From NCBI GenBank assembly GCA_002427745.1, contig DIYF01000183.1:1-46986 (forward strand): a stretch of 46,986 bases of DNA, given 5' to 3'. The notes below the pieces were generated by a model. It was not told where the DNA came from, did no database searches, and worked only from the letters and a program-made list of their open reading frames with translations. The position numbers were made by a program, and so were the translations under genes. Numbering within the stretch: position 1 is the first letter of the stretch; each line of letters begins with the position of its first letter. Of this stretch, positions 29,301 through 46,986 are shown in pieces. Source of the DNA: Roseivirga sp. UBA6061. Lineage in GTDB: Bacteria > Bacteroidota > Bacteroidia > Cytophagales > Cyclobacteriaceae.

Positions 29301-30387
29301 CTTCCATCGTGGTAACTGCCGCGGTATTCCATCCCGATAAGTCCTGATTAAACCGGGTAGCAGATTTGAACATATTGCTCATATCAGTCACTTTGCCTAC
29401 ATCCCAGGTGCCAATAAGATGATTGAAGCGACTGTTGCTTTCAAACATCCCCTTCATGGTCTCCACATTGGATACATCCCAGTTATCCAGGTCCTTGCCA
29501 TAAAAGGTATTGGAAAACATCTCTGACATATCCGTGACCTTGCTTACATCCCAGTTATTCAGGTTTCCCCCATAGTTGGTAAACTTGAACATCTCCTTCA
29601 TATTGGTCACAGCGCTCACATCCCAGTTACCCAGGCGACTATCGCTGATGCGGTTGCGATTGTTGAAGCTTATTCCCTTGAACATTGCCTCCATGGTAGT
29701 TACGTTAGAGACATCCCAATCACCGATGGTAGTATTAAAGCTGGTTGCCTGTTCAAAAGCAAAGCTCATATCGGTTACTTTAGAAGTGTTCCAGAGTCCT
29801 ACTTGCCCTCTGAAGTTACTTGCCTTTCTGAAGATGTTTTTGAAGGTGGTGACATTGGAGGTATTCCAGGAATTAAAGTCTTCACTGGTAAGACCTGTGC
29901 ACTCTTCAAACATAGACTCCATAGAGGTTACCAGGGCCAGGTTAGGACTGTCCTGTGCGGTTACTGACATATCGGGAGTACCGGCAAAAGCCCCCTCCAT
30001 AGACTTCCAAAGTATAAAACCCCATTGCCTGACTGCTTTTAGCCTCAGGCGATTTGTGTACGAAGAATTCATCATATAAACCCTGGGGAAATCTCCGCTG
30101 ATTTTCACTGTGAATCTATCCGCAGTGGCATAGGTGTGACTGGCATCACCGGTTTGGTTGGTTTCTACATTGCCATCACCCCAGTCAACTGTATAGTTAT
30201 AGCCTGTTCCTGTGGTAGGAATAGTTATTTCCTGATTGGCAGAGGTGGTTTCCCAAATCGTTACGAATTCACCCTGTGCATAAGCACCGGCCGAAATCGT
30301 CAAAAAGATCAGTACCCCAAGCCAACGCCACATCCAGCGTCCATCAGGAAGAGGTATCACATTATTGAGTAGCATTTTAATTCTCAT
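20365..30387 (-). CDS. Giant T9SS type B surface adhesin with BspA-like (DUF285) modules, Calx-beta and cadherin-like domains
   Basis: About 3340 residues from ATG 30387 (a GTG lies two codons upstream). A signal peptide ends near AGAYAQ. Four modules follow, starting near residues 40, 570, 1170 and 1760. Each has a PKD-like strand set with (V/I)DWGDG and HTY, 9 to 15 copies of the 25-residue DUF285 repeat (FNQDISGWDVSNVTDMSGMF-like; about 47 in all), a conserved Cys pair and a Calx-beta domain. After about residue 2430 come a YQWYTGS region, three more Calx-beta domains, two cadherin-like domains and a type B gliding-motility C-terminal sorting domain (VFSPNGDGVNETWVIEDL to FLTIIRNR). The architecture indicates a calcium-stabilised, cell-surface adhesin secreted by T9SS. 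The adjacent PorP-OmpA gene is its likely secretion partner. The ligand is unknown. Confidence 0.93.
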   Translation of the reverse strand: MRIKMLLNNVIPLPDGRWMWRWLGVLIFLTISAGAYAQGEFVTIWETTSANQEITIPTTGTGYNYTVDWGDGNVETNQTGDASHTYATADRFTVKISGDFPRVYMMNSSYTNRLRLKAVRQWGFILWKSMEGAFAGTPDMSVTAQDSPNLALVTSMESMFEECTGLTSEDFNSWNTSNVTTFKNIFRKASNFRGQVGLWNTSKVTDMSFAFEQATSFNTTIGDWDVSNVTTMEAMFKGISFNNRNRISDSRLGNWDVSAVTNMKEMFKFTNYGGNLNNWDVSKVTDMSEMFSNTFYGKDLDNWDVSNVETMKGMFESNSRFNHLIGTWDVGKVTDMSNMFKSATRFNQDLSGWNTAAVTTMEDMFSGATAFDQSLAGFELTSVTSIDDMLDNAAMSQANYDLTLASWAGQTVPNGLTLGANGLEYCTSETDRQSLIDNDGWIIDGDSRLCNATLTFTDISVNEDGGAVDVILTLDAFVDGGLTIEVSTADGSATADTDYTAVVAEVLTFNGIAGETQTFSVTPLPDSEEESDETINLSMANLMTDVALNNVNISDGGTITLLDDETESSLFITTWTTETFNEEVTIPTMGTGYDYQIDWGDGTVETNQTGDAVHTYAADGDHQVKIIGSFPGIHLSEGTADNAAKLKSVDQWGTNKWQSMEGAFSGAVNMVLNATDNPDLNLVLSMKEMFRDCKAFNGIIGEWNTFNIQNMEGVFEGAESFNQGLENWSTYSVITARRMFANAKAFNQHLEYWFNSEDGPITDLSEMFAGATAFNRNVDNWEVATVTDLSGMFKGATSFNRNITGWNVESVTDFSEMFSGATSFNQNIGSWNVSSATTLASMLEGAAVFNQDISAWEVGGVTAMEALFKNATAFNQPLNAWNMNKVTTVAGMFEGAVLFNQPLSGWSLSALEDMNAIFKGATAFNQDLATWSTTKVTNMSEAFSGAEAFNQDVSGWDLSLVTDLSGMFSDADAFDQNLGDWNIDGVTTMANLFDNSGLSDNNYDATIIAWSARNVQDALTIGAAGLSYCGSATERKSLIDDHSWTFVGDATGCVANVAVTDVRGNEDDGTITIILELEDAVTGGFSVDLSTVDGTATAGTDYTALTAETVTFAGTAGELQNLTISITQDTENEADETLTVNIGNLVTDAGNEVSFPESITATIVNDDDESAFFIITWETTMANEEMIIPTNGGGYDFRVDWGDGTVETHLTNDPSHTYTTPGVHTVKIIGSFPWIFFSEQDEDGGDLGLKLRSVEQWGTNVWQTMEGAFEGASNMVINATDAPDLSQVTRMDQMFSDCHALTNEDFSNWDVSNVQNMKELFIRTNNFNGNISNWNTANVTTMEQMFEDALMFQGDISGWNVSGVTTMRDMFKLSNTTEDAGGIHRFNGDITGWDVINVVDFHGMFYSNDAFNQPIGIWDVSAAEDMEEMFFGADAINQPLNDWNVSNVTNMADMFDNADAFDQPLDQWDVSGVANMTDMFKSTDAFNQDISAWDVSSVTDMAEMFENANAFNQDISGWNVANVKDMEEMFRGADVFNQDISVWDISNVRTLEGMFHDAVAFDQNLGGWNITKVENMSDLFDGSGMSQVNYDSTLMGWATQDIDSGEEITVGADGLTYCSGLAARTFLEDEFDFSFSGDSQGCMATLTLADGATNEDDGNLFFLLELDREVIGGFSIDLTTTDGTAIAGADYTALTNFTVNFEGLAGESKAILVPLTADATVEADKAFSIAMSNLVIGAGNNVDITDGATGTIIDDDDPTAFFITKWTTTRDNTTVTLPTTGDGYNYRVDWGDGSSDTNVLGDILHTYATAGEYTVTIFGAFPRIYTNSFASNPPPITSIDQWGSNAWTSMEGAFARLPLALTINATDVPDLSNVTSISEMFSQTDLGNPDLTAWDISSITDMSGLFSGSDFNGDITTWEVGHVTNMSGMFSSTSNFNQDISGWNVSSVTNMKSMFLSADVFNIDISSWNVNSVTNMDGMFESTDLFNQPLEAWDVSNVTDMTNMFSRAQAFNQPLNGWDVSNVIEMQQMFLQADAFNQDLNDWDVSNVELFDHMFKQTDVFNGNISNWDVSSGWDFEEMFQETKAFNQPIGNWNLAKATSIRRMFQESEAFNQPLDNWKFPVLESLEQVFRKAEVFNQDLNGWDVSNIIDMQDLFEEAAMFDGDVSQWDVSSVTDFGGVFNETPFNQDISDWDVSSGIDFDNMFDEAVNFNQDISGWDMSNAVDISNMLDEATAFDQDLSNWDLSKVSDFGSMVKLSGLSVANYDALLISLAEKDVVANQEFDVEGLRYCAGDAARQSLINKGWDFRDDDASCTAEVTIADVSGNEDEGVIRVDLTLDARVVGGFTLDAIIAAGTATDMTDFSGSGTQNLTFEGNAGETKSIVISPIADIEDEEDETVLVSMSNLVTGANNTITITDQGTVTILDDDNDPPVATDVSISGLAQVGQTFTGSYSYSDDENDPESGTTYQWYTGSAASPATVYNGTPMEDHEFQLPVNRGGQNAFLNILDNLVYTEDFISGTADPISPTVDVVFGFGIGFGIYPISYYDANVNALAGFGTKNATKMALTSLTPADLATIVTGEDVISLIDGDGLTLVENRVELASGGDGVGLVIAFELAESRGSTRGLIEIASVDQTNQSLTVNIYIGATGNQLVPIAGATTTTLTLTDELVGENIIFGVTPSNGISSGLESISDLVGPIQALPAVSFSTTTASGLESTVTTDIQVNLNQAGLVDATVEYAVSGTATGGGTDYMLAAGTLNFAAGETVKTVSMNITDDLLIEEDETVVVTLSNPDQATLGDESVFTYTILSDDAAVTIEDVSQIEDGESFFITATLEGNVPGGFTIEVNTADGTATEADSDYMPVSGRTLTFNGTDGETQSFDIAPVFDQKLEASETFTVSMSNLGSTSYSVVVTDQATMTITNDDAAAITIADASGNEGDGAITLTSTLDNAVQGSFTVDVSTTDGTATVANSDYIAIAGQTLTFTGTAGETQTFTVNPTNDLVIEANETLTVSLTNLSTSLGVNISDDATVTIINDDFNNAPSDITLSANSLDENNALDAVVGTLTTSDLDVGDTHSYSLVAGTGDDDNASFTVDGFDLKVNNVSFNFEDRASYNIRLQTDDGNGGTFARAFTITVVNVNETPFALSLTNTTIDEADEAQDVGSFMTLDPDNGDTFSYALASGTGDTDNADFEISGGTLRTAGLINFEAGATRSILVRVTDAGGLTFDQAFTINIEEVVIEPLREYTTNTPGADVKNVFSPNGDGVNETWVIEDLLDNPVNEVKVFAQGGKLIYNKVNYRNDWDGTFKNEPVPDGTYYYEINIYNGDRIIKGFLTIIRNR
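23110..30280 (-). repeat. Four tandem long modules inside the adhesin gene
   Basis: Approximate module limits on DNA, read on the minus strand: 30280-28690, 28685-26885, 26880-25115 and 25110-23110. Each repeats the order PKD-like, DUF285 array, Cys pair, Calx-beta, and each next one starts with a (F)FI-TW-TT segment. DUF285 copies count about 9, 12, 11 and 15. Copies are diverged rather than identical, so the repeats are old, but the FNQ-(D/P)(I/L) units within module 4 are close enough to trouble short-read assembly. Confidence 0.85.
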
Positions 30388-30459
30388 ACACACTTAATTA
30401 TTTCAGTAAATTTTGGTCAACAGCGAATAAAGGGCATGCCTTACGCGCGTGAAAAATTA

Positions 30460-34005: not shown

Positions 34006-36207
34006 ATGCACTATACTACTACCGACCGGTTCAGGACCTTCGGCATCCGCTCGCGGATGCTTCTGTTATTGACCATGCTGTGCGCTCATTTCAGCAGTAG
34101 GGCTCAATGCGATTTTGTAGACGTTGCTCCATCTCAAAACATTTATCATACTTTCACCGATGGCGCCCTGGGTGGTGGCGTTTCCTTCATGGATTTCGAT
34201 GGTGACGGCTGGGATGACCTGACACTTGGTACAAGCAAAGGTGAGCCCGTCAGATTTTACAAAAACAACGAGGGGCAGTTTGAATTAGTAACTCTTGAAG
34301 GAATAGACAATACCTGCGAGACAAAGCAAATCACCTGGGTTGATTTTGATAATGACGGAGACAAGGATCTCTATTATGGCTGTGAGGAAGGTGGTGTTGT
34401 CCTCTATCAGAACGATGGCAACCTCTCATTTACAGAAGTAACCACAGAATTTGGTCTGGTCCTTCCCGATGCGCTCACTTTTGGTGCCAACTGGGCTGAT
34501 TTTGATAAAGACGGCTGGCTTGACTTATATATTACCTACTACGGAGGTTCACGTAATCAACTCTTTCGCAATCTTGCTGGTAACGGCTTTGAAAACATCT
34601 CGGTCAATTCAGGAGTCGACCCGGTACATAGGCCGAGTTTCTGCGCAGTTGTTTTTGACTATGACCAGGACGGATTTGAAGATATATATGTAGCAAACGA
34701 CAGATCTGCACGCAATGACCTTTTAAAGAACCTGGATGGAAGCAGCTTTGAAGAAGTGGGAGCAGCCAGCATGAGCAATCTACCCATGGATGCCATGGGA
34801 ACAACTATTCTGGATATGAATCAGGATGGTTTTTTTGAAATCTATATCAGCAACTCGCCTCAGGGAAATGCACTGCTGTTCAACAATGGCGATGGCACTT
34901 TCAAAGACATTGCACAGGAATCAGGTACTATTTTCAACAGTGTTGGCTGGGGCGTCAACACACTCGATTTTGACAATGACGCCTGTCACGATCTCTATGT
35001 AAGCAGCAGTGAAGATGGAAAGGACTATTCGTCCAGTGTGCTATACAGAGCATTGGATGAGTCAAGCTTTGAACAAACCCAGTATCCCGGTATGGCAGCT
35101 GATACGATGATAAGTTTCAGCAATGCTGTCGGAGATTTCAACAGAGATGGTAAAATGGATATTGCTGTGAACAACAGTTATGGTAACCCAAGTCAGCTAT
35201 GGCAAAACAACTGCATTAATGATAACCACTGGCTCAAGCTGCGGCTTGAGGGAACTATCAGCAATCGTGACGCTATAGGCGCCCATGCTGTGGTCTATAC
35301 CGATGGTTTGCCCAATCACCAATACAAAACTGCAGGCATCAGTTTTATGGCTCAGAATACGGATTATCTTCACTTTGGACTGGCCACAAGTACAGCTGTA
35401 GACTCTGTTTTAGTATTCTGGCCAAGCGGTGTGATTGATAAACTGCTAAACCCGGGTATAGATCAGGTAATATCGCTGGAAGAAGGTGCGGCCGCTACGC
35501 CCGTAGCCATAACGGCCAGTCATAGCCTCGAAGCACTTTGCGAAGGAGAAGAAATTACCCTGTCAGTCAATCTAAAGGGCCGGGAACACGAGGTACAATG
35601 GTCTGACAATACTACAGGAAATGAACTGATAGTTTCTGAAACCGGGGTTTATAGTGCGAGTGTAAAATTCGGAAACCAGAATATCACCTCAGAAAACAAG
35701 GCAGTGAACTTCAATAACCTGCCAGGTGTAACTTACGAGATAACTGATGCTTCTAATGGTGGGACTGGAAGCATTACCCTTCACCCTGCCTCAGAATCCT
35801 ATAGCTATTCCTGGAGTCATGACCTGGAGCTTAATGGCCCTGTTGCCGACAATCTTTCGCCAGGCATGTATGTGGTAAGAATCACTTCAGAACAGGGATG
35901 TAATGTCAACCTGACGCTGGAAGTAAAAGCCAACATTGTAACCAGCCTTGACGACCCTGTAAAAAATGCTATAGGCTATAGAATGCAGGCCAATCAGCTG
36001 ATTATCAGTTTACCTCCGGAGCTTAGAGGAAAACTACAGGAAGTACAGGTGCTAAATGCCCACGGACAAAGTTATTCTACATCCGAATTCGGGCCTCTTC
36101 AAGCTGCTGAGCTGGCCATCGCAGACATTCCATACCGACAGCTCATCATCGTTCAGCTACAGTTTAGTGACGGAAGGCATGTGAAAAAGCTCTTTTTCGA
36201 AGACTAA
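34006..36207 (+). CDS. Secreted VCBS/FG-GAP and ASPIC/UnbV repeat protein
   Basis: About 733 residues from ATG 34006; a TTG at 33991 extends the frame by five codons, and ATG 34057 would start directly at the signal peptide (RMLLLLTMLCAHFSSRAQ). Six or more VCBS/FG-GAP repeats carry calcium-binding DxDxDG motifs (FDGDGWDD, FDNDGDKD, FDKDGWLD, YDQDGFED, MNQDGFFE, FNRDGKMD). An ASPIC/UnbV domain follows (HWLKLRLEGTISNRDAIGAHAVV to VDSVLVFWPSGVID). After a beta-rich part, the end (NQLIISLPPELRGKLQEVQV to GRHVKKLFFED) resembles a T9SS type A sorting domain. It is probably a secreted beta-propeller for binding; no enzyme motif is seen. Confidence 0.88.
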   Translation: MHYTTTDRFRTFGIRSRMLLLLTMLCAHFSSRAQCDFVDVAPSQNIYHTFTDGALGGGVSFMDFDGDGWDDLTLGTSKGEPVRFYKNNEGQFELVTLEGIDNTCETKQITWVDFDNDGDKDLYYGCEEGGVVLYQNDGNLSFTEVTTEFGLVLPDALTFGANWADFDKDGWLDLYITYYGGSRNQLFRNLAGNGFENISVNSGVDPVHRPSFCAVVFDYDQDGFEDIYVANDRSARNDLLKNLDGSSFEEVGAASMSNLPMDAMGTTILDMNQDGFFEIYISNSPQGNALLFNNGDGTFKDIAQESGTIFNSVGWGVNTLDFDNDACHDLYVSSSEDGKDYSSSVLYRALDESSFEQTQYPGMAADTMISFSNAVGDFNRDGKMDIAVNNSYGNPSQLWQNNCINDNHWLKLRLEGTISNRDAIGAHAVVYTDGLPNHQYKTAGISFMAQNTDYLHFGLATSTAVDSVLVFWPSGVIDKLLNPGIDQVISLEEGAAATPVAITASHSLEALCEGEEITLSVNLKGREHEVQWSDNTTGNELIVSETGVYSASVKFGNQNITSENKAVNFNNLPGVTYEITDASNGGTGSITLHPASESYSYSWSHDLELNGPVADNLSPGMYVVRITSEQGCNVNLTLEVKANIVTSLDDPVKNAIGYRMQANQLIISLPPELRGKLQEVQVLNAHGQSYSTSEFGPLQAAELAIADIPYRQLIIVQLQFSDGRHVKKLFFED

Positions 36208-36295
36208 GCTCACTCACGCCTTGTGCTTTCTTGCTTCTTAGCTATTTATCAGAACCTTATTTCTTCGGCATCGCTATTATAGGATAAACGCTTTT

Positions 36296-37567
36296 ATGAG
36301 AGACCTTCTGTTATTTCTTTCACTCTTCTGTTCTGTTTCATTGATGGCTCAGTCTTCCGCTGACGTCAGGATGGAAAAGCTGATTGAGGAATTTGAGAAG
36401 GAGTACTATCGAAGTCCCCCTCCCGCCCTCTCCTTGGACTTCAAGGCAAACCTTCATAACGAACTGCAAACCAGAAACATCAAAGTTCAAAAGACCTTCT
36501 TTTCTAAGCTCCTGACTTCACTGAAGAGCATAGAGACAGAGGAATTACGGACAGATCTCCAGCTGGATTTTCAAATTATCAGCTATGAATGTCGACTTAA
36601 CCTCAAAAGACTGGATTTGATTGAAAAATCAAGTGATCACGGTGATATAGCTCCACTTGAGAGCGTATTTGAGTTTAACCACGGACCAGAGTGGTACGCC
36701 TGGTTTACGCAAAAGTGGACGGGTACTGACATGAGCCCTGAAGAAATTCTGGCCTTTGGTGAGAGAGAAGTTGAAAGGGTAAAGTCAGAGATAAGCCAAC
36801 TCAACATTTCACAGACAAAGCCTGCTGATCAGCTCACCAGGGATGTCGCATTGATCGTAAAAACACTCAAAGAGAAAAAGCAACAGATAAAAACAAAGCT
36901 GGAATTTCTTTTCCCTGCCTTTCCTCAATTGCCTGATCTGCACATTCAGCGGGGCACCAATCCTGCCATGGCGCAGGCCCCCGGTTATTACAACAATAAC
37001 ATCTTCTATTTTAACCTGTTTGACAAACCATTCGATCTGGCTGATTGTGACTGGATGCTTATACATGAGGGAAGTCCGGGCCACCATTTCCAGGTAAATT
37101 ACCACAATCACCTCAGCGTAAAATCTTATCGGGCCGGGTTGCGCTATATGGGGTTTATAGAAGGTTGGGCTGCTTATACCGAAAACCTTGGCAGAGAAAT
37201 GGGCCTGTATCAACACCCTTATGAAGCATTGGGTAAATGGAAATGGGATATTATACGCTCTGTAAGAATAGTGCTTGACGTGGGATTGAACTATTACGGC
37301 TGGACCGACCAAAAAGCGCTCATCTACTGGCAGGAGCACATCAAGGGACAGGACGATATTGCCGCCAGAGAAATTGCCAGAATGAAACGCTGGCCGGCAC
37401 AAGTACTGACCTATAAACTGGGCGAAGCAGAAATATTAAGAGCTTTGGAGGAAGAAAGAAACCTCCTGGGTGCGGACTTTAGTTACAAGAGCTTTCATAC
37501 CCGTTTGCTCAACCATGGCTCCATTCCCGTTACGCTTATTCCTCACCTGGTAAAACAGCAATTATGA
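36296..37567 (+). CDS. DUF885-family putative metallopeptidase, exported
   Basis: 423 residues with a signal peptide (LLLFLSLFCSVSLMAQ). The family signature LIHEGSPGHHFQ has His257, Glu258, His263 and His264, and EGWAAYTE at about 289-296 follows, as in DUF885 proteins thought to be zinc peptidases. The usual family length is about 550-600, so this is a short member with a reduced N-terminal part. Substrate unknown. Its stop overlaps the next gene's start by 4 bp (ATGA), so it is translationally coupled to an esterase and the two may act on the same imported material. The enzyme call is family-based inference. Confidence 0.85.
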   Translation: MRDLLLFLSLFCSVSLMAQSSADVRMEKLIEEFEKEYYRSPPPALSLDFKANLHNELQTRNIKVQKTFFSKLLTSLKSIETEELRTDLQLDFQIISYECRLNLKRLDLIEKSSDHGDIAPLESVFEFNHGPEWYAWFTQKWTGTDMSPEEILAFGEREVERVKSEISQLNISQTKPADQLTRDVALIVKTLKEKKQQIKTKLEFLFPAFPQLPDLHIQRGTNPAMAQAPGYYNNNIFYFNLFDKPFDLADCDWMLIHEGSPGHHFQVNYHNHLSVKSYRAGLRYMGFIEGWAAYTENLGREMGLYQHPYEALGKWKWDIIRSVRIVLDVGLNYYGWTDQKALIYWQEHIKGQDDIAAREIARMKRWPAQVLTYKLGEAEILRALEEERNLLGADFSYKSFHTRLLNHGSIPVTLIPHLVKQQL

Positions 37568-38448
37568 GAAAACTTATCCTGTCCATGCTGGCTTCTCTGT
37601 TACTTATCACAGTTCAGGCTCAGCCTTTCAGAACGGTCAACGATCTCAGCTACGCTAAAATTCATGACAAGCAAAAACTTGATCTCTACCTGCCACAAAG
37701 TGTAGAAGGTGCTCCTATCGTGCTTTGGATCCATGGGGGTGCCTGGGCCTTTGGCGACAGGAAAAACGAGAGAGACCTAGCGGAGAAAATCGTCAGGAAG
37801 GGAATTGCGGTGGCTGTTATGAGTTACAGGCTGAGCCCCGGTACCTGGGCTGACCCCAGGTTTGACACCGGTATCCAACATCCGGAACACATCAGGGACG
37901 TGGCAAGCGCCTTCAGCTGGCTATACCAAAATGCCTCTGAGTATGGCTACTCAAAGAATGACATTTTCGTTTCGGGTTATTCTGCGGGCGGACATCTCTC
38001 AGCACTCCTGGCCACAGACCCGCAATACCTGAAAGCCCACAAATTGTCCCTGGAAACCATCAAAGGTGTCATTCCCATAGCCGGGGCTTATGACATAGCC
38101 GACTACCACGATACGCATTATCGCTTTAACGGACCAGACATGGCCGACAAACATGTGAAGGCTGTATTCGGTGATACGAAGGAAGACTTCGTACAGGCCT
38201 CTCCTACCCACTTTGCACAAAACCTGGAGGTTCCCATGTTCCTCATTTCAGAAAACCAAAGCTATAAGTACACTAAAATCTTCGAGGACACTCTTAAAAA
38301 AACCGGTAAAAAGGACATCCAATACCTGCACGTGAGAGAGCTTGATCACAAGGGCTTTTATGAAAATCTTGCCCAAACTGACCAGAGCAAGTACCGTGAC
38401 ATGATCACAGATTTTATACATAAGTGGAGTGCAGACAGACACCAATAG
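37564..38448 (+). CDS. Exported alpha/beta-hydrolase, carboxylesterase-like (BD-FAE/hormone-sensitive type)
   Basis: 294 residues, signal peptide MRKLILSMLASLLLITVQAQ. LWIHGGAW (about 54-61) is the oxyanion-hole motif and VSGYSAGGH (nucleophile Ser140) the elbow. His262 in ELDHKGF is the likely catalytic His. The acid position seems to be Glu230 (FLISENQS) rather than the usual Asp; this needs a structural model. Such enzymes hydrolyse small acyl, acetyl or feruloyl esters, often from sugars. ATG 37564 overlaps the DUF885 stop. Confidence 0.9.
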   Translation: MRKLILSMLASLLLITVQAQPFRTVNDLSYAKIHDKQKLDLYLPQSVEGAPIVLWIHGGAWAFGDRKNERDLAEKIVRKGIAVAVMSYRLSPGTWADPRFDTGIQHPEHIRDVASAFSWLYQNASEYGYSKNDIFVSGYSAGGHLSALLATDPQYLKAHKLSLETIKGVIPIAGAYDIADYHDTHYRFNGPDMADKHVKAVFGDTKEDFVQASPTHFAQNLEVPMFLISENQSYKYTKIFEDTLKKTGKKDIQYLHVRELDHKGFYENLAQTDQSKYRDMITDFIHKWSADRHQ

Positions 38449-38826
38449 CCCTTTTTCTCGAAGTCAGCACTCCATAGATTCTATAAATAGAGCGATAGAT
38501 TTCTCCTTAGTTTACAAGGGCTTTCCCTAAAAATTATAACTATTTTCCTTTGGTTTGGTGTGTCTTTCTGGCAATCTTAACGTCTTATTCCTGAGAATAT
38601 ATAGTCTCGACTCAAAATGTCTATATATAAAAAGAAAGTGTCAAAATTTTGAGTCAGCAGAGTTGTTCATTAAAAAATGCCCTGCAGCCAGCCAAAGGCC
38701 GGTTTTGACCGAATTTTAGTTTTTTAAAGAATTATAAGAACCAGGATGACCTTTGTATAAACTAAGGGACTAACTGTTAATAACTGTTAAACTGATAATA
38801 ATCCACTATTAATAAATTACCTCACA
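38449..38826. promoter_or_regulatory. 378-bp AT-rich gap with dyads before the PKD lipoprotein
   Basis: No gene is visible. GACTCAAAAT (38609-38618) pairs with ATTTTGAGTC (38646-38655) as a perfect 10-bp dyad with a 27-base spacer; TCAAAATTTTGA (38641-38652) is also a perfect 12-bp palindrome. TAACTGTTAA is repeated head to tail at 38771-38790, 36 bp before ATG 38827. These look like regulator sites of the lipoprotein gene, but no factor is known. Confidence 0.4.
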
Positions 38827-39558
38827 ATGAGAAATGCCTTTAAACTAATTGCCGCCATTTTGCTGATCGCTTTTTTTGGATGTAGCAGTGACGACACTCC
38901 ACCAGTAATTCCTACTGTCAGCTTTGAAAGAGACAGGGATATTGTAGAACCCGGAGATGAAGTAACTTTCACAAGTACCAATACCGATGCAGACACCTTC
39001 CTTTGGGAGTTTGGTGATGGCAATACATCTACAGATGAAAATCCTGTGCATACCTACTCTGAGACCGGTTCATTTACCATCACCCTAACAGTAACCAGTA
39101 CCACAGGCGATACTGCCAGCAGCACTGCTACTATTGTAGTAGGTAAAAGGTACCTTCTCGGGTTTCTCGTAACCAATTTCAGTGCAGTTGACGCAACCGG
39201 CAAGCCCTGGGATGATGATTCAAGCGGTCCGGAACTATTCTTTGGCCTGACTCAGTCTTCAAATCAGAATGTAGACCTTTACAATCTCGGAGACAATCTT
39301 ACTGCAGATGATCTGCCGGCCGGAGGTACCGTACCTACTGATGCTCAGGTAGAACTGACTGACGAAGAATGGAGCTTCATCTACATCGATAATGACGATC
39401 CACAAAACGACATTAACACGTCTGATGTCATGGCCATTATCACTGCCAACCCGGCTACTGTCACAGCTGATGAAAAAGACTATGAAGCAGGACAAGGTAT
39501 TTTCACGGTTACCTTGCAAGATTTCTCAGTGCAAATTCTTTACGGAATCAGAAACTAA
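38827..39558 (+). CDS. PKD-domain lipoprotein
   Basis: 243 residues. The signal MRNAFKLIAAILLIAFFGC ends in a lipidation cysteine (about residue 19), followed by SSDDTPP, so it is probably outer-membrane anchored. A PKD domain covers about 30-110: EPGDEVTFTSTN, FLWEFGDGNTSTDENPVHTY, GSFTITLTVTS. The C-terminal half (about 110-243; KRYLLGFLVTNFSAVDATGKPWDDDSSGPELFF to FSVQILYGIRN) is beta-rich with acidic loops and is unrecognised. Possible calcium-dependent binding. It is preceded by a gap with dyads and followed by a strong terminator, so it is likely transcribed alone. Confidence 0.85.
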   Translation: MRNAFKLIAAILLIAFFGCSSDDTPPVIPTVSFERDRDIVEPGDEVTFTSTNTDADTFLWEFGDGNTSTDENPVHTYSETGSFTITLTVTSTTGDTASSTATIVVGKRYLLGFLVTNFSAVDATGKPWDDDSSGPELFFGLTQSSNQNVDLYNLGDNLTADDLPAGGTVPTDAQVELTDEEWSFIYIDNDDPQNDINTSDVMAIITANPATVTADEKDYEAGQGIFTVTLQDFSVQILYGIRN

Positions 39559-39579
39559 TCAGATATAACCAGATAACGG

Positions 39580-39606
39580 AAAAGCGCTCTCACAGGAGCG
39601 CTTTTT
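39580..39606 (+). terminator. Intrinsic terminator after the PKD lipoprotein
   Basis: AAAAGCGCTC (39580-39589) pairs with GAGCGCTTTT (39596-39605), loop TCACAG, followed by a T tract. It lies 22 bp past the stop codon. Confidence 0.88.
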
Positions 39607-39769
39607 CTGTTTTAAACGAGGTGTTTTTTTAAAGGCTCCCCTCCTAAAACAGCACCTCCGCTTCTCCAGGATGTTGCTTACATAAGATTGCATACCAGCC
39701 AGCGAATGTGAGTCGTCAGTTTCCGATGTATTGATTAAATTAATTGCGGTCAATTTTAAACTTTACATC

Positions 39770-41197
39770 ATGCCCCAGAAAGAAACGCGCTCAACCCGGG
39801 AATCCAGAAGACACTTTTTAAAGACACTAGGCCTTACAGGTGCCGCCTTTACCATTGTGCCAAGACATGTACTCGGTAAGGGTTTTATAGCCCCCTCCGA
39901 CACACTCTACCTTGCCGGTATCGGTGCCGGAGGCAAGGGTTATTCTGACCTGGAAGAGCCCACCAGGAATAAAGCAGTGAAAGTGGTGTCACTCTGCGAT
40001 GTGGACGATCGCAGAGCAGAGCGCGCCAGAAAAAAATTCGATGGTGCCAGCTATTACAAAGACTATCGCATCATGCTGGATAAAGAAAAAGGTATTGATG
40101 CTGTTACCGTTTCCACACCAGATCATATGCACGGTATTCAGGCCCTGGCGGCCATGCAATTGGGTAAGCATGTCTATGTACAGAAACCCCTGACACATGA
40201 CATAGCCGAGGCACGTGAACTTACAGAAGCAGCTCATCGCTATAAAGTAGTGACCCAAATGGGAAACCAGGGAGCCTCAGGCGATGGTGTACGTAAAATG
40301 CAGGAATGGTACCAGGCCGGATTGATAGGTGAAGTAGAAGAGGTTTGGTGCTGGACGGACAGGCCTGTCTGGCCACAAGGCATTCCATGGAAAGATCAGT
40401 CGGCTGAAATACCCAAAGAGCTTGACTGGGATTTATGGCTGGGTACGGCTCCCAAAAAGAACTATATAGACAACCTGGTACCTTTCAACTGGAGAGGCTG
40501 GTGGGACTACGGTACCGGTGCCCTGGTAGATATGGCTTGTCATATCATAGAACCGGCTTTCAAGACACTTAAGCTGGGCTACCCTACAGGAGTTGAAGCC
40601 AGTGTAGGGTCTGTTTATACAGGGCCTTTCAACAGGGGGTACTATCCTGAGAGTTGCCCTCCCTCCTCACATATCATACTGGATTTCCCTACCCGCGGAG
40701 ATAAGCCGGCTGTGAAGCTCCACTGGATGGATGGTGGCATACAACCCACCCGACCTGAAGGTCTCGGTGCCAATGAAACCATGGGTGACGGTGGCAATGG
40801 CGTGATCATGAAGGGCTCTAAAGGTATTATGATGTGTGGTACTTATGGTATCAACCCAAGACTGCTGCCGGCTTCTTTACATGAGCAAACTGAGTCGGTG
40901 CCTGAAACGATTGCCAGGGTACCGGAAGGGCACTATGTACAATGGGCCAATGCCTGTATGGCGGGCTACAAAAAGAACGAGTGTAGCTCTGATTTTGACA
41001 TTGCCGGTCCGCTGACAGAGAGCATTCTGATGGGCAACCTGGCTCTGAGAAGCTTTGATATCCGCAAAAAGAAAGGCAACAGGTATGAATACCCTGGCCG
41101 TTATATTAAGCTGCTGTGGGATGGACCGAATATGAAAATCACAAACTTTGACGAAGCCAACCAGTTTGTAAAAAGGGATTATCGCACCGGATGGTAA
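39770..41197 (+). CDS. Gfo/Idh/MocA-family oxidoreductase, Tat-exported
   Basis: 475 residues from ATG 39770; the frame extends to TTG 39731 but the twin-arginine signal fixes the start near here (RRHFLKTLGLTGAAF, a Tat signal). The Rossmann fold (about 40-165) has GIGAGGKG, VSLCDVDD, STPDHMHG and VYVQKPLTHDIAEA (QKP in place of the common EKP). The C-terminal Gfo/Idh/MocA domain includes GTGALVDMACHI. Secreted members of this group oxidise or rearrange sugars with tightly bound NAD(P). The substrate is unknown, and no neighbour points to one. It converges with the anti-sigma-like gene. Confidence 0.9.
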   Translation: MPQKETRSTRESRRHFLKTLGLTGAAFTIVPRHVLGKGFIAPSDTLYLAGIGAGGKGYSDLEEPTRNKAVKVVSLCDVDDRRAERARKKFDGASYYKDYRIMLDKEKGIDAVTVSTPDHMHGIQALAAMQLGKHVYVQKPLTHDIAEARELTEAAHRYKVVTQMGNQGASGDGVRKMQEWYQAGLIGEVEEVWCWTDRPVWPQGIPWKDQSAEIPKELDWDLWLGTAPKKNYIDNLVPFNWRGWWDYGTGALVDMACHIIEPAFKTLKLGYPTGVEASVGSVYTGPFNRGYYPESCPPSSHIILDFPTRGDKPAVKLHWMDGGIQPTRPEGLGANETMGDGGNGVIMKGSKGIMMCGTYGINPRLLPASLHEQTESVPETIARVPEGHYVQWANACMAGYKKNECSSDFDIAGPLTESILMGNLALRSFDIRKKKGNRYEYPGRYIKLLWDGPNMKITNFDEANQFVKRDYRTGW

Positions 41198-41245
41198 TCC
41201 TGTGAGATTCACTTTTCATTGTCTTAGCGCGTTAAGGAGCCTGGT

Positions 41246-42046
41246 TTACAATTCGTCCAGCAGCTCCTGCGCTAACTCAGAATTGTATAGTTTTTCGGTA
41301 ATGATCTTTCCAAGCAGGCTCTTGGCCCCAGCCACATCATCCCTTGCCAAAAAAAGAAGACTCTTATACCAATAACCTCTGCTGTTTTCCAACAGATCAC
41401 TTTGTATAAACTCATCTAATACCAGCTCTGCCTCCTGATAATTACCTGACTCTATCTGGGTCAGAGCCAGATAGATATAAACCTGGCTGGTTCTTTGGCC
41501 CTCAGCATATAAACGCCTGAACTCCTGACGAGCCTTTTCGTAGTTTTCCGCTTCTATCAGTTGTTTTCCCTTCTGAATAGCGGTGTCCGGGTTGTCATTG
41601 TTTCTGAAGGTTCTGGTGGTATGATTCGTTTTTTCCAGATAAAACCTGAACAGTTCCTGCGAACTTCGTGGAGAAGATACATTACCGATAAAAACCAGGA
41701 TCAGAATGACAGCCGCTGCTGCGACCATATAGATCAACCTTGATTTGGTCAGAACTGCAGGCTGCTGAGTGTAAGACTCCCTCGCTTTCGCCACTTCACT
41801 CCGAATTTTCTCAGCATAGGCATTATCGAATACATCCAGGGGGTCAGCAATATCCTTTCCCCCTTGTGACTCATGGAGACTCCAGTCATGTGGATTAAGA
41901 GACTCTCTGAGTTGCTTTTCCAATACTACGCGTTCACGGAAATTGGCATCAGCATCAAGCCTCTTTTTAAAATCATCCAGTGCATCGCCCCTCAGCTCAT
42001 CATTGAGGTACTGCTCAATCAGCAAATCATCTTCAAAATCCATCAT
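41246..42046 (-). CDS. Membrane TPR protein with anti-sigma-like N-terminus
   Basis: 266 residues. The cytoplasmic N-terminal part (1-100), with DLLIEQYLNDELRGDALDDFKKRLDAD-type sequence, is of the kind found in Bacteroidetes anti-sigma/sigma-regulator proteins. One membrane helix follows (about 104-121, basic residues on the N-terminal side, so N-in, C-out). The outer part (124-266) has about three TPR repeats (AENYEKARQEFRRLY, SGNYQEAELVLDEFI, DVAGAKSLLGKII). Its ATG overlaps the ECF sigma stop by one base, so the two are translationally coupled. With the TPR-CHAT gene it forms a three-gene operon. It is proposed to hold the sigma factor at the membrane and to be released or cut by the CHAT protease; that is inference. 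Confidence 0.82.
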   Translation of the reverse strand: MMDFEDDLLIEQYLNDELRGDALDDFKKRLDADANFRERVVLEKQLRESLNPHDWSLHESQGGKDIADPLDVFDNAYAEKIRSEVAKARESYTQQPAVLTKSRLIYMVAAAAVILILVFIGNVSSPRSSQELFRFYLEKTNHTTRTFRNNDNPDTAIQKGKQLIEAENYEKARQEFRRLYAEGQRTSQVYIYLALTQIESGNYQEAELVLDEFIQSDLLENSRGYWYKSLLFLARDDVAGAKSLLGKIITEKLYNSELAQELLDEL

Positions 42047-42597
42047 TACTTCAGTTGGTTGTAACGACTGTCAGACAGAATAAGCCTGATCAATTGATTT
42101 TTACACTTAAACACACGTTGTCTTGCCACAGTTTCCGTACTATAGCCCATCTCTGTGACAATTTCAGAATATGCAATTTTTGAGAAGTAAAGCTCCAGGA
42201 CCCTGGAACAATTTGAAGATAGTACACCAAGTTTTTCAATAAACAGCTCAAACCTCTTTTGCTCTGTCAAAGCTCTCGATTCATCCTCAGAAGTACTCAT
42301 ACGACTAAAATACTCATTATCTACCCGTATAGTGGTCTTTGAGGTTTTTAAATGCCTTCTCCATAAATTCTGACAGACTACAAACAGATAATTCTTAAAA
42401 TCTCCCTGTATCTCAAATGGTTCATTTCTGTGTCTGACAGCAATCTGAACCAGTGCTTTTTGGAAAATGTCCTGTGCATCATCCCGGGTACCGCTATTGC
42501 CTTTGATATAGTCTTCTATGCGAGGGTAAAAATCCTGATAAATCTTCTCAATCTTCCTGGATTGGCCACTGATAAGTGCTTCAAAGTATCTATCCAT
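42046..42597 (-). CDS. ECF (RpoE-like) RNA polymerase sigma factor
   Basis: 183 residues. Sigma region 2 lies at about 20-90 (YPRIEDYIKGN, DAQDIFQKALVQIAVR, FKNYLFVVCQNLWRRHLK) and region 4 at about 125-180 (LSSNCSRVLELYFSKIAYSEIVTEMGY and TVARQRVFKCKNQLIRLI as the recognition helix). There is no region 1 or 3, as expected for ECF factors. It starts 8 bp after the TPR-CHAT gene stop and its stop overlaps the TPR anti-sigma-like gene. It should direct RNA polymerase to a small regulon when released. Possible targets here are the operon itself and the divergent lipoprotein at 46186. Confidence 0.92.
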   Translation of the reverse strand: MDRYFEALISGQSRKIEKIYQDFYPRIEDYIKGNSGTRDDAQDIFQKALVQIAVRHRNEPFEIQGDFKNYLFVVCQNLWRRHLKTSKTTIRVDNEYFSRMSTSEDESRALTEQKRFELFIEKLGVLSSNCSRVLELYFSKIAYSEIVTEMGYSTETVARQRVFKCKNQLIRLILSDSRYNQLK

Positions 42598-42604
42598 TCT
42601 CTAT

Positions 42605-45600
42605 TCAGGCTTCCTTTTTATTCCTTCGTGAAGTGAAAAAGACGATAAGCAGGGCCAGCAAAGAAGATACAGCAATGATCATCCTTGTCCTGTTTTCGCT
42701 CTTCCAGGTAAGCACCTTGTCATCGCCCCACAGTGTATAGGCAGCCCAGAAGGCCGGGTGAGAATAAACTGAGGATTCAAAAAACTCGACCTGAGCTTGT
42801 TGTAATGCCATATCTTTAGGTAACCCGGATTTCAGCTTCTGGTAGAACAACTCCATGATCTGCGCTGTATTTTCGTCATCAATAGGCCATTGGCTGGCTA
42901 TGATGTTCTGAATACCTGCCAGCCTGAAAGATCTCGCAAGACTTATCAGACCTTCTCCGTTTTGCCAGGGGCCGAAGGCTGTCTGACAAGCACTTAAGAC
43001 CGCCAGATCCGCAGACAGCTCAAGATTAGACAGTTCATATGATTCGAGGTAATTATCTTCCCCATCGTCTCTGCCTGCAGTAAATGCAATACCGGAGTAT
43101 TCGGGAAGGCTGTCGCTGAGAATGGCATGTGCTGCCAGGTGAATAATGTTGTATTCAACCGCCTTCTCTCTGAAGCGGCCTACAGTAGCCTCATCTGCCA
43201 GAAAAACATCCCCCTCCGTGATTTCAGCAATCTTCTTCACCTCACTCTGATTGTATAGAAGCGGGCTTAGTCCGTTCCTGCTTTCAAGGTTAACACTTCT
43301 GGTTACCAGACTCCTGCCATAGCCCTTATCGCTATAACTGGGTGCAAAACCAACGAAGTCTTTTCGAACACTTTTCGCTTTTTTATAGTCAGTGAAAAGA
43401 ATACTGGCCGAAAAACCATAACGAACTGACAAACTCTTAATGAGGTATGGCAAGGCACTAAAACTGTCAACGGTTGCTTCAGCTTCATCGGTATTCAAAG
43501 TGGCAAATGACAGTCTCCCTAAAGGACCATCAGGTATCACAATCAACGATTTTCCGGACTGATAATTCAGCTGTTTGGAGAGAAGTCTGCCATAAAGCTG
43601 GTTGGAAACAGCATTGTACTGACGAATTTCCTGCTTTGACTTGCCCCGTTTAAGAGCCCGGGAGTAGTCGCTGTTCCATCCAATATACGCTTCGAGGCTG
43701 TTTTCAAAAGCTGTGTCGATCTTCTGAACATGTAAATTGATCAGGTCTGAAGTAACAGCAAATGAATACAGCAATGAGTCAGCCCAGACATATTCTATGA
43801 GGGTACTCTCATCGGGTATTTCACTCATTATCTTATCGATACTCACTATATGCTCGCTGTACTTCAGAGCATAGTAGGCAGGATAATTATTCTCATAGCT
43901 TTCAATAAGCTTTTCAAGCTGCCTCTTCTTACCGAAAATCACATTGCCCAGAGAATCTGTGAGCAGGGTATCTGATTTAATTCTCTTCTCATAAAAGGCA
44001 ATTTCAACCAAGAGGTTGTTTTCAATATCCAGCAGACTATCCGGCAGCACGGTGCTATTGGACTGCTTTAACCTCTGAGACAAATAAAAGGCCCGTGACT
44101 TTTCAGCAATTTCAAACGCATAGCCCAGGTAATAGGCATCATCCGTTTTCTCATACAGTGCTCTGCAAAGATCAATGGTCTCTGTATAGTGAGCTGTCTG
44201 CTCATTCATAAAGCTATTCAGGTCGTCAATCTCCAAATACTCTCGCCTGACCTGATCTATGAGTCCTATGGCCAGCTGGTAGCCTGAAAAAGCCGCATTC
44301 AAATACCTCAGGGCCTCCCCCTCTGTATCAGCGGTATTGGCCAGCCTTTTCAAGGTTCTGCTTTTGGTAATCATAACAGGTAAAACATCAGCAGGAAACA
44401 TCACTTCTTCCAAAGCAGGGTTGTCGAATACACTGTTCAAAGTAGACACCTCACTTCCGGCAATAATGGCCCTTTGAAAATTTTCCAGTGCTTCCATATC
44501 ACTTCCTTCGGCCAGTCGGCTGAATCCCAGGTTTTTAAGGGTGGTAACCAGAGAATTAGCTTTACCTGAAGAAAAGAACTCACCCCTGATCGCCAGAGCT
44601 TTCAGAAAATGATCTCTGGATCCTGAGAAGTTCCCCATAGCCATTAAAGCATTACCAAGGTTGTTATGACTTTCTGCGATAGAAGGATGATTGGCAGGCA
44701 GCAGGCGCTCTTTGATCTTCAGGGCGTCTTGCTGGTAGTTCTTTGCCTTTTGATAGTTGAGTTGATAAAGCCAGGTAGTTCCCAGGCTTGAATAGCTTTG
44801 CGCCACATCCATATGGATATCTCCGAAAACTTCTCTCCTGCTCTTAAGAGCCCTGTGATAATACCCGAGAGCGGTTTCATAATCCCCGGTTTCTCTGTAT
44901 GCGTTGCCTATATTGTGAAGACATGTAGCCGTTCTGGGATGCTTTTCACTAAAATTTTTGAGATAAATTCTCAGAGCTCTCTCGTAATAATCAAGAGACT
45001 TCTGGTATTGACCATTGTCGAACCACATAATTCCCAGATTGTTATAGCTGGCAGCCATGTCCGGGTCATCTGGCTTCAGGGTTTTCTTTCTGATTTCAAG
45101 CGCCTGCTCAAAGTGGTCAATGGCCTCTCTTATATTACCCAATCGATTATATGTGATGGCCAGCTCATTAATGACCGTGGCATTATGTGAGTGTTCCCGG
45201 CCCAGTGTTTTGATAAAGACAGCGGATGCTTTCTCCAGTAAATCAACGGCAGTCAGGTGATCGCCCATTCTGTTCTGAACATAGGCAATGTTATAAAACA
45301 ACTCACCAACCTTAATATGATCTTCTCCCAGATTGTGACGTTTGATATCAACAGCCCCCTTATACTGCTCAAGTGCCTGAGCGAACATGCCCTTGTTGAG
45401 ATAGACAGATCCCAGGCCCAATTGTACATTGGCCAACAGACTGTCGTTTTCCATGAGTCTCTTTCTGGCCACCTCCAGGGCAAGCTCATACTCGTTCTGT
45501 GAGGAGTCATATTCATTGAGAGACCTGAATGTCATAGCCTTGAAAAGTTTGACAGAAATCAGGGATCTCCAGGAATTGTTCTTTTGATAGATGTTTTCTG

Positions 45601-45808
45601 CATTCCTGAAGTAGTATTGGGCACTATCAAATGACCGTGCCTTCAGATACCTTACCCCCTGGGTGTATAAACTTCTGGCGAGAAGGCTATCAGTCGCTTG
45701 TGAGTGTTGAATTGAATTATTCTGTGACTGCCTGACAGCAATAAGTTCGTTTGACACAAGATTCAGGCATACTACAAGAGCCAGCACTACCGGCCTTAAA
45801 ATACTCAT
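42605..45808 (-). CDS. TPR-CHAT putative caspase-like protease
   Basis: About 1067 residues from ATG 45808, with GGGAG 5 bases upstream; ATG 45823 is an alternative, and the frame reaches a GTG at 45880. A signal or anchor helix (RPVVLALVVCLNLVS) opens the protein. About ten TPR repeats of 42-residue kinesin-light-chain type follow (e.g. AASYNNLGIMWFDNGQYQKS). A helical region leads to a C-terminal CHAT domain with catalytic His894 (HLAAHA) and Cys941 (LSACQTA). A last membrane helix (MIIAVSSLLALLIVFF) and a basic tail (SRRNKKEA) end it. CHAT proteins are caspase/separase-like proteases. With N-terminal export and a basic C-terminus inside, the TPR and CHAT parts should be periplasmic. First gene of the operon with the ECF sigma and TPR anti-sigma-like genes. 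Confidence 0.9.
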   Translation of the reverse strand: MSILRPVVLALVVCLNLVSNELIAVRQSQNNSIQHSQATDSLLARSLYTQGVRYLKARSFDSAQYYFRNAENIYQKNNSWRSLISVKLFKAMTFRSLNEYDSSQNEYELALEVARKRLMENDSLLANVQLGLGSVYLNKGMFAQALEQYKGAVDIKRHNLGEDHIKVGELFYNIAYVQNRMGDHLTAVDLLEKASAVFIKTLGREHSHNATVINELAITYNRLGNIREAIDHFEQALEIRKKTLKPDDPDMAASYNNLGIMWFDNGQYQKSLDYYERALRIYLKNFSEKHPRTATCLHNIGNAYRETGDYETALGYYHRALKSRREVFGDIHMDVAQSYSSLGTTWLYQLNYQKAKNYQQDALKIKERLLPANHPSIAESHNNLGNALMAMGNFSGSRDHFLKALAIRGEFFSSGKANSLVTTLKNLGFSRLAEGSDMEALENFQRAIIAGSEVSTLNSVFDNPALEEVMFPADVLPVMITKSRTLKRLANTADTEGEALRYLNAAFSGYQLAIGLIDQVRREYLEIDDLNSFMNEQTAHYTETIDLCRALYEKTDDAYYLGYAFEIAEKSRAFYLSQRLKQSNSTVLPDSLLDIENNLLVEIAFYEKRIKSDTLLTDSLGNVIFGKKRQLEKLIESYENNYPAYYALKYSEHIVSIDKIMSEIPDESTLIEYVWADSLLYSFAVTSDLINLHVQKIDTAFENSLEAYIGWNSDYSRALKRGKSKQEIRQYNAVSNQLYGRLLSKQLNYQSGKSLIVIPDGPLGRLSFATLNTDEAEATVDSFSALPYLIKSLSVRYGFSASILFTDYKKAKSVRKDFVGFAPSYSDKGYGRSLVTRSVNLESRNGLSPLLYNQSEVKKIAEITEGDVFLADEATVGRFREKAVEYNIIHLAAHAILSDSLPEYSGIAFTAGRDDGEDNYLESYELSNLELSADLAVLSACQTAFGPWQNGEGLISLARSFRLAGIQNIIASQWPIDDENTAQIMELFYQKLKSGLPKDMALQQAQVEFFESSVYSHPAFWAAYTLWGDDKVLTWKSENRTRMIIAVSSLLALLIVFFTSRRNKKEA

Positions 45809-46185
45809 TACGCTCCCGGGCATATAAAATGAATTAAAAACATGTCTCACTATAACATTACCATTAAGTAAATGATACACTTAAATGTTTTTGGTGACAA
45901 ACTAAAGGATAATTGATCTGAAATTGCTCAAACGAGTAGGCTGAAAAATCGAGATATGAGCCTTGTGACTAATACTGCCGGATGGCCTGTTAGCAAAATT
46001 TCAGTCCGTTGCCTCCTCCCTCCAAAAGAGACAGGTCAAAATTAATTTGATTTTTTCGGGTAACAAAACCTCTCATTAAGAAGATAGCTACAACTATGTT
46101 AAGCTAGCTATAAAAACAATCTCTAATTGACTTAATCAATGAAAATCTATCTTTTAATGATTAAAAAACTCAAACCCAATCAAAT
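45809..46185. other. Divergent gap between TPR-CHAT and the edge lipoprotein
   Basis: No gene is visible in these 377 bp. A small dyad, ATTGA-CTTAA-TCAAT (46126-46140), lies about 46 bp before ATG 46186, and an AGCTAGCT palindrome sits at 46102-46109. These could be sites of the ECF sigma factor or another regulator, but I cannot assign them. Confidence 0.4.
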
Positions 46186-46986
46186 ATGTTAACTATAAAA
46201 AACAAGTACAGGAGTCGGGCGCACTCCCCGAATATCCTATTAATCCTTATCGCTTTCTTTTTTGTCTTCTCCTGTGCAGAAGAGGAAATTTATGAACCTG
46301 TCACCGATCAGCCACTGGACGAATATCACAGTACTTACAATACTACTATTCAGGACGGTAAACTTAAGTTTAGCAGCAAAGAAGCGATCACCTACTTTAT
46401 GGAGTCTGATAAAGAAGACAGGGAGGCCTATATCAGGGCAATGACTGCCAGTGGGTTCAAATCACTGAGGCCTTTCTACCATGAAAATGAACCTGACAAG
46501 ATTGACAGGTTCCTGGCCGAAAAGCAAGAGCGCATCAGAACGAAAGGTCTTCTCTATAGCGACAAGAGCGAAGATGAATACAACCTTGATCTTGATGATG
46601 AGTTGATCATGGACCCCTATTTTGCCTCCATTCTCAATGAAAACAGAGAAATCTATGTAGGTGATGAACTGTATATCTACACGACTAAGGGCGTATATGT
46701 CAGTAAAATTGAGAAGGAAGCCGTTTTACAGGAGTACATGAAGAACCTGGAGGCCAAGATGGTAGCCAATGACATCATGAGCGTACCTGGCATATGTGAG
46801 TATAAAGTAGATACTGGTGAAAAGCCTCAGGCTACAGAAGGTGGAGGTCTGAGCCTCTCTCAGGTTGAGATGGTGCCTGTTGCAGTAACAGAAGATATCA
46901 CGCTGTATTCTAATGAAGACCTGGACATGTACGAAGATGACCCCTGTAATAGCGGTGGAGGCACTGGTGGTGGCGGAACCGGAGGC
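46186..46986 (+). CDS. Lipoprotein of unknown function, 3' end outside the window
   Basis: 267 codons visible from ATG 46186. A lipoprotein signal (ILLILIAFFFVFSC, acceptor Cys about residue 30) is followed by an acidic, helical domain (about 45-200) with FSSKEAITYFMESDKEDREAY and FYASILNEN-like stretches. A Gly/Thr-rich linker (SGGGTGGGGTGG) reaches the edge, so at least one further domain probably lies outside the window. I do not recognise the family. It is divergent from the TPR-CHAT operon by 377 bp; it could be a target of that system or unrelated. Confidence 0.82.
   Translation, partial: MLTIKNKYRSRAHSPNILLILIAFFFVFSCAEEEIYEPVTDQPLDEYHSTYNTTIQDGKLKFSSKEAITYFMESDKEDREAYIRAMTASGFKSLRPFYHENEPDKIDRFLAEKQERIRTKGLLYSDKSEDEYNLDLDDELIMDPYFASILNENREIYVGDELYIYTTKGVYVSKIEKEAVLQEYMKNLEAKMVANDIMSVPGICEYKVDTGEKPQATEGGGLSLSQVEMVPVAVTEDITLYSNEDLDMYEDDPCNSGGGTGGGGTGG

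Follow-up and report, generated by a model that had tools for sequence, protein, structure and literature searches.

The DNA analysed here, which we call the window, is the whole 46,986-nucleotide stretch of contig DIYF01000183.1 from Roseivirga sp. UBA6061, and our subject is a group of three adjoining genes on its minus strand, namely a TPR-CHAT gene, then a gene for an extracytoplasmic function (ECF) sigma factor, then a gene for a single-pass TPR protein that resembles an anti-sigma factor. A previous sequence-only reading had described this triad with spacings of 8 and -1 base pairs, an intact His894/Cys941 dyad in the CHAT protein and a location of the CHAT domain and the anti-sigma tail in the periplasm. 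The three genes are indeed present, the CHAT and sigma products score over their family cut-offs, and the dyad is found at these positions when residues are numbered from the ATG; the sigma and anti-sigma genes do overlap by 1 base, and the gap between the CHAT and sigma genes has to be corrected to 7 bases.

42605..45808, minus strand: TPR-CHAT protein of 1067 amino acids (aa) from an ATG start, with a signal-like N terminus, a TPR array, a CHAT domain and a C-terminal transmembrane (TM) segment; PF12770 at 179 bits, TPR families; model at a predicted local distance difference test (pLDDT) score of 86.7
42046..42597, minus strand: ECF sigma factor of 183 aa; TIGR02937 at 44.5 bits, above cut-off
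41246..42046, minus strand: single-pass TPR anti-sigma-like protein of 266 aa; TM and weak TPR matches; model at pLDDT 85.4

The match to PF12770, for which the cut-off is 24 bits, assigns the first protein, a relative of caspases and separase, to this family, with proteolysis as its predicted activity. In the model (pLDDT 87) a long helix array precedes the alpha/beta CHAT domain and a helix forms the C terminus; the positions used below are the following.

45737..45808, minus strand: signal-peptide-like N terminus, CHAT residues 1-24, a hydrophobic segment from the ATG (hydropathy)
43241..43243, minus strand: Glu856 codon, candidate S1-pocket acid, covarying with the anti-sigma linker residue
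43127..43129, minus strand: catalytic His894 codon, invariant in alignment A3 (49 sequences)
42986..42988, minus strand: catalytic Cys941 codon, invariant in the same alignment
42875..42877, minus strand: Asp978 codon, second covarying acid of the CHAT
42632..42688, minus strand: C-terminal TM of the CHAT, residues 1041-1059, then a basic tail (hydropathy)

Both members of the dyad are likewise kept in 14/14 CHATs of the source genome, most of which have a hydrophobic N-terminal segment; by hydropathy, a TM and a basic tail close the sequence of all 13 whose C terminus is complete. Among 92 CHAT/anti-sigma pairs a TM was detected in the CHAT of 84 by the same method, starting at a median of 12 residues past the CHAT domain. 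The active site is thereby predicted to lie in the periplasm, close to the membrane, and the earlier placement agrees with this topology, in which the CHAT domain is about 12 residues from its C-terminal anchor and the anti-sigma protein spans the membrane once. A weak match to the CHAT model at locus L173 (8551-11331), with His changed to Asp and Cys to Thr, adjoins an ECF sigma gene, and a 4.1-Mb genome of the same order (G013) has 48 CHAT matches, with a C-terminal TM in 0 of the 8 CHATs of 7 sampled loci (L127-L133).

The sigma factor matches TIGR02937 (cut-off 42.9 bits) over residues 15-169 of 183 and has only regions 2 and 4 of sigma-70, as in the ECF class. The 266-aa protein shows one TM and, in its tail, weak TPR matches, and its AlphaFold2 model (pLDDT 85) displays a helical head, a low-confidence stretch, a TM helix and a helical tail.

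41882..42046, minus strand: helical head of the anti-sigma-like protein, residues 1-55, presumed cytoplasmic (helices in the model)
41678..41734, minus strand: TM of the same protein, residues 105-123 (hydropathy)
41567..41677, minus strand: juxtamembrane linker, residues 124-160 (alignments)
41603..41605, minus strand: Arg148 codon, proposed CHAT cleavage position (P1), Arg in 93/118 family members

The head matches no anti-sigma family above cut-off; among 34 relatives zf-HC2 was detected in 2 and RseA_N in 1 (E<=0.01), and a Foldseek comparison of the whole model with the PDB brought up TPR and helical proteins of a generic kind (best E 0.0024). The protein is likely a membrane-bound sigma inhibitor, in which the head would bind the sigma factor. 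A protein search with its sequence matched only 2 proteins, 95% and 30% identical, so single-sequence searches miss this family.

The source genome (G000, 8.18 Mb in 188 contigs) holds 14 CHAT matches, and 68 ECF matches over cut-off. An ECF gene is found within 4 kb of 8/14 CHAT genes and within 1.5 kb of 6/14, compared with 6.4% and 2.5% expected per gene (p about 6e-7 for each), and this proximity is not due to chance. A wider survey took in 19 relatives and a phylum sample of 61 genomes, both sets including the source genome; flanks were analysed for most CHAT matches, those of G013 being represented by 7 loci, several weak or partial matches being left out, and loci L162, L167, L170 and L172, with no CHAT over 40 bits by our own model, lying outside it. 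In the relatives a sigma gene lies within 4 kb of 25/36 CHATs with a C-terminal TM versus 6/26 without, and in a set of 80 named loci, which were picked by similarity to the CHATs of the source genome and so are not random, of 27/70 versus 5/20; linked loci of this set include Aquimarina, Agaribacillus, Splendidivirga, Winogradskyella, Saprospiraceae and Bacteroidales. With the window anti-sigma as sole query, 9 of 15 matches in other genomes were within 5 kb of a CHAT gene. Where a CHAT has a TPR anti-sigma within 4 kb (n=65), the two genes are convergent in 35 cases, on the same strand in 19 and divergent in 11. The gene order is fluid, and because the adjacency survives rearrangement we argue for a functional pair. 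The sequence-only reading had made conservation of the triad elsewhere its own test, and the association recurs in many genomes, with varying gene order.

The TPR anti-sigma family, of which a member is detected at E<=1e-20 in 97/291 genomes of the order, is defined by score to A2, a set of 34 proteins picked by eye from 46 encoded downstream of CHAT-near sigma genes; L092 and L164 were regained through the A2 model. The first profile hidden Markov model (HMM) was trained on 25 CHAT-adjacent anti-sigmas of other genomes, L128, L168 and L173 being excluded, and it gave 89 to 247 bits to all 7 CHAT-adjacent anti-sigmas tested from the source genome. The other sigma loci of this genome (60 entered, 58 yielding a sigma gene, 4 of these without a same-strand downstream gene) gave one downstream protein at 150 bits (L202, contig C102) and a next best score of 37, and on this score split the family is nearly confined to CHAT neighbourhoods in the source genome. 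Two TPR anti-sigmas, both with the linker Arg described below, stand near one CHAT gene at L025, L080 and L111, where one protease might serve two switches. A longer subfamily of 336-346 aa, with an extra C-terminal part past the TPRs, is encoded in convergent loci throughout (L023, L105, L109, L110, L114, L116, L117, L120 and L122). Small genes without a Pfam match lie between divergent sigma/anti-sigma and CHAT genes at L019 (5748-7115; products of 142 and 143 aa with similar N termini) and L017 (12115-13230; 159 and 165 aa). At L020 (4939-6279) the genes downstream of a CHAT without a nearby sigma gene encode a TonB_C protein and also two similarly small products (96 and 97 aa), each with a TM at its C terminus and unmatched in Pfam; these are possible partners or substrates.

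The family has a short linker between the TM and the TPR tail, and in 118 distinct members the column of window residue 148 contains Arg 93 times, Met 7 times and Lys 3 times. Among the charged residues of the protein this Arg is the most conserved, and it lies a median of 27 residues past the TM. The residue after it (n=93) is Gly 49 times, Ser 19 times and Asp 10 times; Arg145 is a near alternative in the window protein. Five genomes have the anti-sigma and no CHAT at E<=0.001 (G003, G100, G140, G199 and G355), and the linker Arg is present in one of them, versus 78/92 paired members (p 0.004).

A scan of 2550 column/residue splits of the CHAT against the linker residue ranked Glu856 first, Ala892 second and Asp978 third. 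Over the 91 pairs with a letter at position 856 (L356, with a gap, was left out), the linker has Arg or Lys in 79 of the 82 that keep Glu856; in the nine that have lost it, replaced by Leu, Ala, Val or Ser, the linker has Met or Leu in 8 and Lys in 1. Read from the side of the linker, Glu is present in 77/77 Arg-type pairs. An acid immediately precedes position 856 in 4/9 pairs without Glu856 and also in 18/82 pairs with it, and when it is counted as retained all 5 remaining non-acid pairs have a non-basic linker residue. Outside the pairs Glu856 is kept in 141/143 CHAT entries, not all distinct as a few genes were fetched twice (e.g. L098 and L103). Asp978, which is Asp in nearly all CHATs and was singled out as a pocket candidate before its variants were examined, stands with Arg in 78 of 92 pairs and with other residues in 8, while its replacements stand with Arg in 0 and with others in 6. 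The covariation supports, without proving, a role of the CHAT as dedicated site-1 protease.

We propose, as a moderately probable reading, that the CHAT is the site-1 protease of the neighbouring TPR anti-sigma and that the triad as a whole is a signalling switch operated by proteolysis. At rest the single-pass anti-sigma would sequester the sigma factor through its cytoplasmic head, with the TPR-CHAT protein in the periplasm and its C-terminal TM anchor predicted to keep the catalytic domain near the membrane. An envelope signal met by the TPR array of the CHAT or of the anti-sigma would lead to CHAT activity and to a cut in the juxtamembrane linker, which would follow the conserved basic residue, Arg148 in the window protein, or a Met in those lines whose CHAT lost Glu856. 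The anti-sigma stump would then be degraded by an intramembrane protease, freeing the sigma factor; the one M50/RseP-like gene of the genome (220.6 bits, contig C111) is the candidate site-2 protease. The earlier suggestion that the CHAT relieves the anti-sigma in the periplasm is thus supported in part, by the linkage, the predicted topology, the juxtamembrane Arg and the covariation at 856, seen in few lineages. The same order of cuts is known from the DegS-RseA-RseP pathway, in which a periplasmic site-1 cut is followed by a site-2 protease and then by sigma release; DegS is a serine protease, whereas we propose a CHAT cysteine protease as the site-1 enzyme, with its gene next to that of its target. 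DegS and RseA are also named in a paper on Csx29 (PMC10028731).

Several results weigh against this proposal. Six of the 14 CHATs of the source genome have no sigma gene in 4 kb, with one at 6 kb in a single case and with two of the six lying at contig starts. Of the 46 proteins encoded downstream of CHAT-near sigma genes, 10 are neither family members nor part of the linker count. In the phylum sample a sigma gene lies within 4 kb of 8/18 CHATs with a C-terminal TM and 7/19 without, therefore the TM matters little for linkage there. The linker Arg is kept in G199, in which no CHAT was detected, and, within CHAT-bearing genomes, in 14/21 members that lack a fetched CHAT in the surrounding 6.5 kb (one of the 14, L252, does have an adjoining CHAT). 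To say that the Arg is kept in CHAT-bearing genomes only is too simple given these counts; another protease could cut at this residue, or it could be kept for some other reason, and CHATs encoded elsewhere could act in trans on these anti-sigmas. Both these Arg keepers and the frequent location of the CHAT gene on the opposite strand would fit a different arrangement, in which the sigma/anti-sigma pair senses stress alone and induces the CHAT as an output acting on other envelope proteins, the linker Arg being cut by another site-1 protease or kept otherwise. We consider this arrangement rather unlikely, as it predicts neither the joint change of the linker residue and CHAT residue 856 nor the absence of the Arg from 4/5 genomes without a detected CHAT.

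The covariation itself arises from few events. On a quick maximum-likelihood tree of 87 CHATs the linker residue and residue 856 need 5 changes each, of which about 4 coincide, and a tree-aware test is left with 2 independent pairs on branches with support, too few for significance; the Fisher values of about 1e-8 consequently overstate the association. The linker residue is Ser in two pairs with Glu856 and Glu in a third. The 65 pairs with a measured distance within 1.5 kb include none of the 9 that lack Glu856, the CHAT of 8 having been fetched apart and no distance computed, although the coordinates put, for instance, the G310 pair side by side. Our first S1 candidate, Asp978, covaries but misses the P1-pocket position of separase. 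The covariation could also be shared ancestry, one or two clades having both a divergent CHAT and a divergent anti-sigma, with no direct contact: 5 of the 9 pairs without Glu856 belong to a single clade (support 84), only two contrasts on well-supported branches are independent, and columns 892, 939 and 1011 associate too. Common descent nevertheless appears improbable to us, because Glu856 was lost outside this clade as well, in L260, L264/L267 and L165, each time together with the linker Arg, and because Glu accompanies Arg without exception in the Arg-type pairs.

By analogy with other proteases Glu856 is plausible as the S1 acid of the CHAT. In the model its helix (853-864) comes after strand 816-822, a position that resembles that of Asp163 of gingipain R and Asp365 of MALT1, which bind P1 Arg and are located within helix alpha-1 or where it begins, past strand beta-1, according to PMC4626109. 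The S1 Asp of separase is Asp2151 (PMC10317155) and is reported to be replaced by K670 in Csx29 (PMC9729208). K670 aligns with window residue 982, 8 past a conserved Trp, and not with 978, and Asp978 was rejected as a separase-type S1 residue; the column of residue 982 is mostly Ala, Ser or Pro in the CHATs. Csx29 is reported to cut Csx30 between residues 427 and 429, and deletion of Met427 alone blocks cutting (PMC10028731), and a cut after Leu407 is mentioned in a second paper (PMC9729208). The Met-type pairs have a parallel in Csx29, a CHAT without the separase acid that cuts close to hydrophobic residues, as a likeness and no proof.

With profile A4 a search of the PDB reached DdvA (8rot, 8rw5), and phmmer with a single CHAT domain gave nothing relevant there. 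DdvA, of the DdvA/DdvS system of Myxococcus xanthus, is the closest relative, a transmembrane anti-sigma factor that bears a CHAT domain itself; DdvA unites the anti-sigma part and the CHAT in one chain, whereas the window has two proteins with their own membrane anchors and the sigma gene between them. Since DdvA carries its CHAT within the anti-sigma chain, control without a separate protease is conceivable, and the TPRs of both partners would permit it: as a co-receptor or inhibitor, the CHAT protein would bind with its TPR array to the TPR tail of the anti-sigma, and its CHAT fold would be a scaffold. The invariance of the His/Cys dyad in 49/49 CHATs of A3 and the position of the covarying site at a short linker residue, not on the TPR surface, make such non-cutting control very improbable in our judgement. 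Eukaryotic separase differs in its substrate, cohesin, and the residue aligned to its pocket Asp is not acidic in the window CHAT. Metacaspase-sigma-70 operons and EACC2-caspase-ECF neighbourhoods also place caspase-fold genes beside sigma genes (PMC3501461, PMC8195603), the latter with a TPR protein, DUF1822, as well (PMC8195603); these are other caspase-fold proteins, and the available parts of the two papers mention no single-pass TPR anti-sigma. In a literature search largely without full texts we recognised no description of a CHAT/ECF/TPR anti-sigma triad in Bacteroidota.

The comparison that the sequence-only reading had drawn was with Craspase (Csx29, Csx30 and CASP-sigma of type III-E CRISPR), at a locus that it called CRISPR-free. 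As an analogy this holds, given that a TPR-CHAT fold is present and that cutting of a sigma inhibitor is what we propose; as an identity it does not. Craspase is RNA-guided via Cas7-11, whereas the window locus is without a Cas partner, its CHAT is predicted to be secreted and membrane-anchored and hence in another compartment, its inhibitor is a small single-pass TPR protein, and DdvA is the closest solved anti-sigma relative. We found no CRISPR-like repeat array within 36000-46986 and no Cas protein among the scanned window proteins, the Cas7-11 (gRAMP) profile itself not having been run. 'CRISPR-free' is true of the locus and not of the genome, because two genes of the RAMP family (L360 and L361, with 301- and 406-aa frames) lie at 37235-39289 of contig C61; the genome seems to hold a type III CRISPR-like locus there, on a contig with 0 of the 14 CHAT matches. 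PADLOC, run on 8 proteins near the window locus, reported no defence gene and only OmpA/MotB-like cross-matches on one protein, on which basis the idea of a defence island was rejected, and no RNA family reached its gathering score within 36000-46986. Elsewhere in the window, positions 20365-30393 encode a protein of 3342 aa that combines many stretches of DUF285 with Calx-beta and PKD domains and a CHU_C type IX secretion signal, adjoined at 18724-20352 by a protein with PorP/SprF and OmpA domains.

Beyond this locus, many Bacteroidota may each carry several parallel, mutually specific switches of this kind, an extension that we regard as possible though somewhat short of probable. In each, a membrane-anchored, separase-like CHAT would cut the linker of its own TPR anti-sigma, and the swap of the cleavage Arg to Met that accompanies loss of the acidic pocket residue would mean that enzyme and substrate co-evolve, so that paralogous switches could be insulated from one another. 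The residue pair formed by linker position 148 and CHAT position 856 is directly testable. If the proposal is true, a substrate and a pathway would be assigned to the TPR-CHAT proteins that Bacteroidota secrete, of which the source genome encodes up to 14, and proteolytic sigma release would come to include the action in trans of a separase-like cysteine protease, with the RNA-guided Craspase and the single-chain DdvA as relatives within a broader theme.

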